Assembly (NCBI GenBank): GCA_017694955.1
Contig: JADIMC010000010.1
Location: 1-64,000, forward strand
Direction: 5' to 3'
Origin: Candidatus Limisoma faecipullorum
GTDB taxonomy: Bacteria > Bacteroidota > Bacteroidia > Bacteroidales > Muribaculaceae
Length of the DNA: 64,000 bases
Below, one piece after another: positions 27,470 to 47,370 of the stretch (position 1 is its first letter; each line of letters begins with the position of its first letter). The position numbers and the translations under genes were made by a program. A model generated the notes under the pieces. The model had not been told where the DNA came from, made no database searches, and saw only the letters and a list, made by a program, of their open reading frames with translations.

Positions 27470-27913
27470 ATGACAAGAATCATACGAAATATTATTCTTG
27501 CGCCGCTGTTTGTGGCGCTTGCCATCCCGGCGGCATTGTCGCAGGTGACGCGTGTTACGATAGAAAGTACGCATTCGCAGCGCAATTGTTGTGTGAACGT
27601 ATATGAATACGATTATGTGGATGTGCCGCCGCAATTTCCGGGTGGCGACCGGGCTATGGTTAATTTCATCAACAAGACGCGTGTCTATCCGTATGAGGCA
27701 TACAAGAAGCACATACATGGCCGTGTGATGTGCAGTTTCATTGTCAATACCGACGGGTCGATATGCAATGTCTCGGTAGTGAAAGGGGCTAATCCGTTGC
27801 TTGATAAGGAAGCCGTGAGGATTATCAAGGAGATGCCTGCGTGGAAGGCGGGAAAGCTTGGAGGCGAGACGGTGCCTGTCAGATGCTTCTTGCCAATTCC
27901 TTTCAGATTATGA
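27470..27913 (+). CDS. Stand-alone TonB C-terminal-domain protein
   Basis: Signal peptide then VPPQFPGGDRAMVNFINKTRVYPYEAYKKHIHGRVMCSFIVNTDGSICNVSVVKGANPLLDKEAVRIIKEMPAWKAGK. Confidence 0.85.
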   Translation: MTRIIRNIILAPLFVALAIPAALSQVTRVTIESTHSQRNCCVNVYEYDYVDVPPQFPGGDRAMVNFINKTRVYPYEAYKKHIHGRVMCSFIVNTDGSICNVSVVKGANPLLDKEAVRIIKEMPAWKAGKLGGETVPVRCFLPIPFRL

Positions 27914-43529: not shown

Positions 43530-44582
43530 ATGAAAAGTTTAAAATTCTTTTTGTTTCTGTTGCTGCTTGCTGGTATGGATGTGGCGGCACAGACTACCGG
43601 ACTGTTTACCTACAACGGTGGCTATTTCGTGAAAGCCGGTGACTACTGGACGGAATACCGCCCTGCGGAGAAGGACGGGGTATGGGCTACATATACTCAA
43701 TATAATGAGGAGACGAATTACTATCAGGTGAAGAATTCCTCTTGTTCGCTCAGTATTCCTAAAACCAGTAATAACAATTTCTATATATGGGAGGACGGCG
43801 AATGGAAAGTGATTTACACCACAAAGCATATCTATGGCTATTTCAATGACGAGAGCCGTGAAATATATGCATATAATCAAGGTGGATATTTCGTCCGCGA
43901 CGGAAATACGTGGCGCGAATACCGCCCGGACAAGAAAGCCGGGCTGTGGGCTACATACACACAATATAAGGAAGACGACAACTATTTCTATATGCGCAGC
44001 ACGGCGAGCGAGGTGTGCGTGCCCAAAGACGAGCACAACGACTTCTACCTGCTCAACGGCGGCAAATGGATGAAATGCTACACCACGTCGGCAATCTACG
44101 TCACAAAAACGCCGGCGGCCGGCGGCAACTCCACTACAAGCATTGACGAGGAATCAGGCTACGACTATGTGTTCAGGTACAAATCTTACAGCAGAGTGGA
44201 ATATAAGGAAGAGGAAAGCGAGTACCCCCTCATCAATTTCTTCTTGGGAGGTGTTACTTACCGGGAAGAGACAGAGCAGATAGATTTGTCTGCAAAGGTG
44301 TGCATCTCGCGCAACGGCAAAATGATGATTGAGCTCGGCGGAGACTGCTTCTATCTTACATTCGCCAAGATAGACAAAGGACTTACGGACAGCTATATCG
44401 AAATTTATCCATACGCGGACAATTATGACTGCAAACTGGCAATATACAAAACCGGGAATTGCCAATTGTCGCTCGACAAAGCGGAGCTGGGGATTGGTTT
44501 GTGGAATCTGCACGGAGGCGATTATGAATCCACCTACAATGAAATATTCCGATTAGTGGATAGCTACACTTTCCTGAAATAG
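43530..44582 (+). CDS. Secreted hypothetical protein with internally duplicated ~80-aa domain
   Basis: Two copies of YNxGGYFVxxGxxWxEYRPxxKxGxWATYTQYxExxNYYxxxxS...FYxxxGxWxxxYTTxxIY. Confidence 0.65.
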   Translation: MKSLKFFLFLLLLAGMDVAAQTTGLFTYNGGYFVKAGDYWTEYRPAEKDGVWATYTQYNEETNYYQVKNSSCSLSIPKTSNNNFYIWEDGEWKVIYTTKHIYGYFNDESREIYAYNQGGYFVRDGNTWREYRPDKKAGLWATYTQYKEDDNYFYMRSTASEVCVPKDEHNDFYLLNGGKWMKCYTTSAIYVTKTPAAGGNSTTSIDEESGYDYVFRYKSYSRVEYKEEESEYPLINFFLGGVTYREETEQIDLSAKVCISRNGKMMIELGGDCFYLTFAKIDKGLTDSYIEIYPYADNYDCKLAIYKTGNCQLSLDKAELGIGLWNLHGGDYESTYNEIFRLVDSYTFLK

Positions 44583-44615
44583 GTCTCCATATCCTAAGCA
44601 TACAGGACAAAAAGC

Positions 44616-44653
44616 AATGGCTGCCGCGATTCAACAACGCAGCAGCCATTTTT
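44616..44653. terminator. Intrinsic terminator
   Basis: AATGGCTGC / GCAGCCATT stem followed by TTTTT. Confidence 0.75.
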
Positions 44654-44694
44654 CAAAATCACAGAATCTAAGTAAAGCTATCACAAGGTTGGTG

Positions 44695-45435
44695 TCATTT
44701 AAGGTCTCCTGCATTCATAGATGTACCCAATTTCATTTTTGTAGTATTATTATCCGCTTTGTCCTCGAAATTAAGTTTATAGAAATATTCTCCTGCAGAA
44801 TAAGTTTTCGTCCGTATGATTAGCCCTTTCAATGAGGGATTTTCCGAAAGCAGTTTGTCGGTATTGAACGACACGATGCCGTTGTATGGATATTGCTCGA
44901 CGTCGTTGTTGGCATTGTGGCGGAATTCCACGTATAAATATCCGTCTTCCGTCTTCTTAGGCTCGTCAACGGTGACAAGGTTTATATAATGAGTCTTGTC
45001 GCCGCCGGAAAAATATTGGAAGCGGAAATTCAAATATTTGTCGGTTGCCCATATTTCCGATACGGAGATGTAGTCGTCGCCTATCTCATTGGAATTTTCG
45101 GCTGTCAGATGCACGGGGTCCTTGACCAGTATCTTATACAGATAAAAGATGTCGATTTTCCCGTCATAGCCCTGAGGCTCTTCGCTGTCGAATGTGAATT
45201 CCACATACAGCCTGTCGCCTGCCTTGGCTTCTGCGGCTACTTCCGTCGAATTGCTTATCAGCAGTTTCCGTCCGCTGTCGGTTGCGATGAGGTAATTGAT
45301 TCCGTCCGCTTTTTCAAGGCTTCCGATGGTGGAATAATATGTGCCGTTATTGTCATCGTTCATACATGAGGATGTCACCGCCATTATGAAGGCGATGCAG
45401 ATGAGTTTTATTAAATTCACTTGAGACTTTGTCAT
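44695..45435 (-). CDS. NigD-like lipoprotein
   Basis: Lipobox VTSSCMNDD; two-domain NigD-like organisation. Confidence 0.78.
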   Translation of the reverse strand: MTKSQVNLIKLICIAFIMAVTSSCMNDDNNGTYYSTIGSLEKADGINYLIATDSGRKLLISNSTEVAAEAKAGDRLYVEFTFDSEEPQGYDGKIDIFYLYKILVKDPVHLTAENSNEIGDDYISVSEIWATDKYLNFRFQYFSGGDKTHYINLVTVDEPKKTEDGYLYVEFRHNANNDVEQYPYNGIVSFNTDKLLSENPSLKGLIIRTKTYSAGEYFYKLNFEDKADNNTTKMKLGTSMNAGDLK

Positions 45436-45456
45436 AGTTTTAAATGTTTTTGTTTC

Positions 45457-45539
45457 ATAAACGGAGATTTGGGCAAATACTGCATCGGTGACAAAAAATT
45501 TTTTTATAAGATGCAGTTTTTTGATGTTTTTCCGTTTAT
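45457..45539. promoter_or_regulatory. 83-bp dyad = two divergent copies of GATGCAGT-N13-TCCGTTTAT; candidate ECF promoters
   Basis: ATAAACGGA (45457-45465)/TCCGTTTAT (45531-45539) and ACTGCATC (45479-45486)/GATGCAGT (45510-45517); identical 13-nt spacers, common centre ~45498. Confidence 0.7.
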
Positions 45540-45553
45540 AAAATACTTGAAAA

Positions 45554-46087
45554 ATGACCGAAGAGGAGATATATGAAGGCTGCCGGAGCGGCGATGATGC
45601 TGCCCGAAAGGAACTTTATGTGCGCTATGCAGGAAAGCTCCTCGCCATAGGTATGCGCTATCTTGCCGATAAGGAATCGGCAGAGGACACCCTCCACGAT
45701 GTGTTTGTGAAGGTGTATGGCTCATTCGGAAAATTCAAGTATCTCGGAAGCGGCTCTTTGCAGGCTTGGCTGACGAGAGTTATGGTGAATGAATGTGTGG
45801 GAAAATTGCGCGGCAACCGTTTGCTCGCGACAATCCCGGCGGATAACGTGGCCGACGACCTGCCGGAGCCGGACAGTGTGAAGGAAGTGCCGGCAAAGGT
45901 ATTGATGAGGATGATAGGAGAGCTTCCTGCAGGGTATCGTGCTGTGTTCAACTTGTTTGTGTTTGAGAAAAAGAGTCATAAGGAGATTGCGGAGATGCTC
46001 GGAGTGAGTGAGAAGACGTCATCGTCGCAATTCCTGAGGGCAAGGAAGGCTTTAAGTAGAAAAATTTATGAGTATTTGGACAAATGA
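45554..46087 (+). CDS. ECF-subfamily RNA polymerase sigma-70 factor
   Basis: Sigma2 YLADKESAEDTLHDVFVKVYGSFGKFKYLGSGSLQAWLTRVMVNEC; sigma4 YRAVFNLFVFEKKSHKEIAEMLGVSEKTSSSQFLRARKAL. Confidence 0.95.
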   Translation: MTEEEIYEGCRSGDDAARKELYVRYAGKLLAIGMRYLADKESAEDTLHDVFVKVYGSFGKFKYLGSGSLQAWLTRVMVNECVGKLRGNRLLATIPADNVADDLPEPDSVKEVPAKVLMRMIGELPAGYRAVFNLFVFEKKSHKEIAEMLGVSEKTSSSQFLRARKALSRKIYEYLDK

Positions 46088-47370
46088 AACGTGATATGGA
46101 ATCCGGTTACGATAAATGGTCAGAAGAATTGCGTCGGAAGCTCGAAGGCTATGAGGAGCCGGTGAGCGGCAATGTTTGGGACGCTATAAGCCGTGACCTT
46201 GAGAAACAGAAGACGAGGCGGCGTATGCGGCTTATGGTGGTGCGTGTCGTCGCTGCCGCCGCATGTGTGGCTTTGATTGCCGGCATTTATGTCTTTCTCA
46301 AGGACGAGGCTTCTACTTTAGGCACGTTGCAGTCGGGTGTCTCGATTCCGGAAATCACGGCTGAAGCCCAGGAAGGGGAGGAAGAGGTGAATCATCAGGA
46401 GGCAAGCCCTCCTTCAAGAAGGATGCCGGAAAAGCTGATTGCTGTCGCAAGATATGCTGACAGTGGCAAAAGGCTTGTCGTGACAGCTGACACTGTTGCC
46501 AATGATGCAGTGTCTCACGAAAGTCGGAGTGGTGATGCCGGAGATAATGGCGGAAATGCTGTTGATGCTGGCGGCAATAAAAAGGATGTGAAGGAGAAGT
46601 TTGATGAAGGCGGCAATAAAGCGTATCCGTTGTTTACTGGTGTCTCTGCAGGCGTTTCGAAGAAAAACCGCCGGTTTGGGGTGAGTGTGAAGGTAGATAA
46701 CGGAATAATAGCGCAAAATAGCAGTAACGGCGGATTTATGCCGATAGACAGGCAGGCGCGTCCGTTCGGACCTCTTTATGCTTCATCGCAGGGGGAGGCG
46801 GCGTTTAATTCGTCGTATGCTGAAATGGTGGCGAATAATGTGGAACGTCCTGTGCGGACTGACTTGCAATATGATGTTCCGGTGACGGCTGCCGTCTCGT
46901 TCCGATATGAGATAACCGACCGTTGGAGTGTGGATGCCGGCTTGAGCTTTACCCGCACAGGCGCGTCATGGCGTTCCGGGTCGGATGAGCATTATTACCG
47001 TTCGAAGCAGAAGGCTTATTTTGTCGGGATACCTGTGGATGTCAGCTTCACGATTTTTGACAGCCGTTACTTTTCATTCTATGCCTTGGCTGGCGGGAGT
47101 GTTGAGAAGTGTGTGGCCGGTAATGTCAGCACATCTCTTGTCGGAGGGCTGGAAGATGCGGCCTCGAATATGAAAGAGGGCTTGGCCGAGCATCCGTGGA
47201 TGTTTTCCGTGGCAGCTGGTGTAGGTGCGCAATTCAACATAACCGACCGCTCTGGAATTTTTGCAGAGCCGAGAATTGCCTATGTGTTCGACACGGCAGA
47301 AGATATGCTTTTGCGGAAGAACAATTCTCCGCAGTTCAATCTTAGTGTGGGAGTGCGTTTCAGTTATTGA
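46084..47370 (+). CDS. Single-TM protein with N-terminal cytoplasmic segment and C-terminal outer-membrane beta-barrel domain; candidate sigma regulator
   Basis: N-term SEELRRKLEGYEEPVSGNVWDAISRDLEKQ, TM LMVVRVVAAAACVALIAGIYVFL, Gly/Asn-rich linker, C-term barrel ending FNLSVGVRFSY; 4-nt overlap with sigma gene. Confidence 0.75.
   Translation: MKRDMESGYDKWSEELRRKLEGYEEPVSGNVWDAISRDLEKQKTRRRMRLMVVRVVAAAACVALIAGIYVFLKDEASTLGTLQSGVSIPEITAEAQEGEEEVNHQEASPPSRRMPEKLIAVARYADSGKRLVVTADTVANDAVSHESRSGDAGDNGGNAVDAGGNKKDVKEKFDEGGNKAYPLFTGVSAGVSKKNRRFGVSVKVDNGIIAQNSSNGGFMPIDRQARPFGPLYASSQGEAAFNSSYAEMVANNVERPVRTDLQYDVPVTAAVSFRYEITDRWSVDAGLSFTRTGASWRSGSDEHYYRSKQKAYFVGIPVDVSFTIFDSRYFSFYALAGGSVEKCVAGNVSTSLVGGLEDAASNMKEGLAEHPWMFSVAAGVGAQFNITDRSGIFAEPRIAYVFDTAEDMLLRKNNSPQFNLSVGVRFSY

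Follow-up and report, generated by a model that had tools for sequence, protein, structure and literature searches.

What does the 83-bp mirror-image element between the divergent genes of an ECF sigma factor and a NigD-family lipoprotein do, and which protein reads it? The window, i.e., the whole 64 kb stretch of DNA that was analysed, holds the two-box unit GATGCAGT-N13-TCCGTTTAT as an exact match at 45510-45539 on the plus strand and again at 45457-45486 on the minus strand. Read as ECF-type promoters, the first would face the sigma gene, with a -35 box GATGCAGT at 45510-45517 and a -10 box TCCGTTTAT at 45531-45539, and the second would face nigD, with the same boxes at 45486-45479 and 45465-45457. 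The original prediction had placed identical boxes with 13-nt spacers here and counted 15 nt from GCAGT to CGTTTA, which agrees with the exact matches on both strands and with our measurement (the sigma-side promoter core is GCAGT-N15-CGTTTA). The tract at the dyad centre, between the two -35 boxes, had been given as A6T6 but reads A6T7 (45493-45505), and is possibly an UP-like or bending element. The distance from the TCCGTTTAT box to the ATG is 15 nt for the sigma gene (45554) and 22 nt for nigD (45435).

The mirror-image dyad is not due to chance. Two sites were observed in the window against a mean of 0.08 in 100 dinucleotide shuffles, none of which reached two (0/100), and shuffling the 118-nt intergenic region 60,000 times never produced a mirror pair, defined as non-overlapping 8-N13-9 boxes. 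With up to three mismatches allowed, the 64 kb window contains no further match to GATGCAGT-N13-TCCGTTTAT, and no exact copy occurs elsewhere in the 2.27 Mb assembly. Our preferred reading, to which we give a probability of about 90%, is that the 83-bp element consists of back-to-back promoters of the adjacent ECF sigma factor.

Judged from sequence, the three genes of the locus are the EcfO-Reo / Das1-Dma1 plus NigD envelope-stress module of Bacteroidales. On the minus strand, nigD (44695..45435) encodes a NigD1/NigD2-family lipoprotein of 246 aa matching NF051862 (3e-51; 174 bits, which passes the curated cut-off of 60), PF17415 (3.5e-31) and PF12667 (3e-6), and its PDB relatives are NigD-like proteins such as 4pqx. 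The sigma factor, an EcfO/Das1 homologue of 177 aa (45554..46087, plus strand), exceeds the cut-offs of PF04542 and PF08281 (regions 2 and 4). Homologues of the Bacteroides/Phocaeicola/Alistipes type that share this gene order are up to approximately 57% identical to it, and homology together with gene order would place it in the EcfO/Das1 type (ECF21). Overlapping the sigma gene by 4 nt is the plus-strand gene of a Dma/Reo-type anti-sigma of 428 aa (46084..47370; PF13568), which aligns over its full length with the P. vulgatus homologue (28% identity, 3e-47). The protein has cytoplasmic N-terminal helices, a TM helix at approximately residues 50-72, a disordered tether at 79-192 and a C-terminal outer-membrane beta-barrel. 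In the AlphaFold model, the barrel strands at 258-427 are confident and the tether is disordered, and Foldseek matches are OmpA/Ail/OmpX-type barrels. This agrees with the published architecture of Dma/Reo proteins, which are anti-sigma factors spanning both membranes (Dma/Reo: PMC13088901, PMC9308784).

If the boxes are promoter elements, they should outlast the DNA around them, and comparison with relatives bears this out. A divergent nigD and sigma gene with a site on each side was found in 4/4 genomes of the window's genus, including the window's own assembly (G000). The sigma and nigD sides read AAAGCAGTAATTTTGCATATCGTGCGTTTA and TGTGCAGTATTTCCGTTCTTCCGCGTTTA in G001, GATGCAGTATTTTTGCAAATCCTTAGTTTA and TGTGCAGTATTTTGCCATTTCGTTTGTTTA in G002, and GATGCAGTATTTTTGCATCCGGCACGTTTA and GGCGCAGTATTTTTCGCCAAGTGCTGTTTA in G003, i.e., the spacers differ while the boxes are kept. 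Homologous loci extend to Bacteroides, Phocaeicola, Mediterranea, Alistipes and further families of the order, and the Bacteroides, Phocaeicola and Alistipes loci are among those that again keep boxes and not spacers, as had been predicted. By plain pattern, 32 of the 134 regions upstream of homologues contained a sigma-side site, compared to 0.4 expected from shuffles, with the reservation that relatives sharing ancestry are not independent counts. The site follows the relatedness of the sigma factor, as it was found for 20/21 homologues with at least 50% identity to the window sigma and for 0/19 below 40%. A motif model detected the sigma-side promoter in 34/34 and the nigD-side promoter in 33/34 of the loci with a divergent nigD, compared to a sigma-side promoter in 17/113 loci without one; many of the scored loci had also served to train the model, which makes the plain-pattern result the more independent of the two. 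These data indicate, from sequence comparison, that the divergent promoter arrangement is kept in many gut Bacteroidales.

The dyad was also proposed to define the recognition motif of the sigma factor, and this is supported with a refinement. The motif does recur, but what is conserved is a core of GCAGTATTT followed by C[G/A]TTTA at 15 or 16 nt, with most of the DNA in between varying, and not the full GATGCAGT and TCCGTTTAT boxes. Bacteroides loci have CATTTA as their sigma-side -10, the window's genus has CGTTTA, and individual Alistipes loci contain both forms; thus, the second base of the -10 is degenerate.

The proposed search for further copies was also successful, as the motif precedes other envelope genes, too. 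A stricter motif pattern gave four matches in G000 and none for the reversed control. The looser pattern GCAGTN15-16CGTTTA gave 2+2 matches compared to 2+1 for the reversed control, and is therefore too unspecific to define a regulon alone. The most consistent target is a META-domain lipoprotein (PF03724), which is likely a second regulon member on the sequence evidence: a motif match precedes it at 27614-27643 (minus strand) of contig C43 in G000, and sites also lie upstream of it in G003 (C22) and G001 (C5), i.e., in 3/4 genus genomes, while none was found upstream of its homologue in G002. Further motif matches in G000 nominate as candidate targets an operon of tandem short lipoproteins (C48:1391-1420, plus strand), a secreted ORF (C116:24168-24194, minus strand), and a DUF4251 gene with genes for a lipoprotein and an outer-membrane protein downstream of it (C86:7918-7944, plus strand). 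The second nigD of this genome (C51) showed no upstream site. A match with two mismatches within a coding region (C75) and a looser-pattern match on C35 were put down to chance. A more distant sigma homologue lacking a divergent nigD (G020) still carries GATGCAGTGTTTCGGGCGATCGTGCGTTTA 41 nt upstream of its start.

The closest studied counterpart is EcfO-Reo of B. fragilis and P. vulgatus, in which the sigma gene is likewise followed by a barrel-bearing anti-sigma gene and nigD is divergent. P. vulgatus ATCC 8482 has the same two-box promoter on both sides; however, its -10 is CATTTA instead of CGTTTA, its -35 boxes are 49 bp apart instead of 30 bp, and it has a TGTTAAA element where the window has the A6T7 tract. 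In the same strain, the site precedes three of the five PF17415 nigD genes, the ecfO-divergent one included. Three nigD genes have been reported to belong to the EcfO regulon and to need EcfO for expression (PMC13114119), so the numbers agree, with gene-level correspondence for the ecfO-adjacent gene only. In P. vulgatus, the sigma gene increased 33-fold upon toxin treatment and 14 genes were upregulated after loss or disruption of the anti-sigma (PMC9308784); in this homologous module, a group of nigD genes is induced with EcfO, as is the sigma gene (PMC9308784, PMC13114119). The published description of Das1-Dma1 plus NigD1 in B. thetaiotaomicron, a system of vesicle control (PMC13088901 and its reference 16), likewise has a sigma factor paired with a dual-membrane-spanning anti-sigma, and deletion of dma1 induces nigD1 through Das1 (PMC13088901). 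A strong site (27.7 bits) was additionally seen in P. vulgatus ATCC 8482 at 3219634-3219660 (plus strand), upstream of a lipoprotein gene whose product has no NigD_C match and no Pfam family within its first 85 residues.

Could a different ECF sigma factor of the genome recognise the boxes, or a group of such factors whose specificities overlap, so that the linked sigma is merely one of the targets? The genome has seven sigma matches at E <= 1e-3, the window's included, and similar upstream sites occur at some of the more distant ECF homologues (40-50% identity). We nevertheless regard this as very improbable, as the motif tracks closeness to the window sigma across the identity classes given above. 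Autoregulation is moreover the common rule among ECF sigma factors. Because the genome also encodes related ECF paralogues, we infer the exact cognate sigma from linkage, and the boxes are very probably read by the adjacent one.

The perfect mirror symmetry in the window and the A/T-rich centre would also suit an operator, where a dimeric regulator binds one inverted repeat and thereby controls both genes. Such a regulator would not be expected to leave the -35 to -35 distance free to range from 11 to 53 bp while the spacing from GCAGT to the -10 stays constant at 15-16 nt, as in a promoter. In addition, the unit is found singly at sigma genes without a divergent nigD and at other genes, including the META-domain lipoprotein and nigD genes of P. 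vulgatus, which argues for a sigma promoter rather than a repressor operator and makes an operator very improbable. That the boxes are parts of housekeeping (sigma-ABfr) promoters or chance A/T-rich sequence is hardly credible, since, despite the low GC content of the sigma/nigD intergenic region (26%), the TAnnTTTG -7 consensus of sigma-ABfr (PMC7366714) is absent from both its strands and the conservation and shuffle tests speak against it.

Back-to-back sigma promoters are thus the reading we develop further. The claim that the sigma factor drives its own gene and the lipoprotein gene from mirror-image promoters is supported by comparison, through the conservation of the boxes, their recurrence and the P. 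vulgatus data. Divergent autoregulated ECF promoters, in which the sigma factor recognises both its own promoter and the neighbour's, are a known arrangement; the pair in the window differs in that both promoters carry identical mirror-image boxes, and in that the spacing falls into two classes among relatives. By analogy with published Bacteroides and Phocaeicola work, from which both the release mechanism and the signal are carried over, the sigma factor would be held by the anti-sigma (46084-47370) in the unstressed cell, and outer-membrane stress sensed via the anti-sigma barrel and tether would release it. Sigma-bound RNA polymerase would then transcribe nigD leftward from a predicted TSS at approximately 45449-45452, and the sigma-anti-sigma operon rightward from one at approximately 45544-45547. 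The expected outcome is positive autoregulation with renewal of the anti-sigma, and NigD surface lipoprotein would be produced to match.

The regulatory module itself is already known, and for B. fragilis a motif recognised by EcfO was described in 2013, according to PMC7366714; the sequence of that motif was not found in the literature searched. What our results add is a comparative definition of the motif read by an EcfO/Das1-type envelope-stress sigma across several Bacteroidales groups, its divergent arrangement across several families, and predicted extra targets. NigD lipoproteins are thereby tied to this motif by sequence alone, and the EcfO/Das1-type regulon becomes predictable in uncultured relatives. 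In the members studied so far, vesicle release, protection against toxin and colonisation of the gut are under the control of this system (PMC13088901, PMC9308784, PMC13114119).

The distance between the GCAGT boxes is bimodal, being 27-30 bp in 8/36 loci and 48-51 bp in 24/36, i.e., two classes approximately two helical turns apart. Alistipes and three of the four genus genomes make up the short class, and most of its loci have an A-tract/T-tract at the place of A6T7. The long class holds the remaining genus genome together with the Bacteroides/Phocaeicola-type loci; in most loci of this class, TGTTAAA keeps a constant offset from the -35 box of nigD. One doubtful but conceivable explanation is that the two promoters form a single conserved composite element whose length matters, in which nigD output might be coupled to that of the sigma gene, either by back-to-back polymerases or by an upstream element common to both. 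Such phasing is weakened by the outlying distances of 11, 41, 45 and 53 bp and by shared ancestry.

At the other end of nigD, between its 3' end and the convergent end of the gene at 43530-44582, a hairpin-like inverted repeat, AATGGCTGC...GCAGCAGCCATTTTT, spans 44608-44660 and by eye looks like a terminator.
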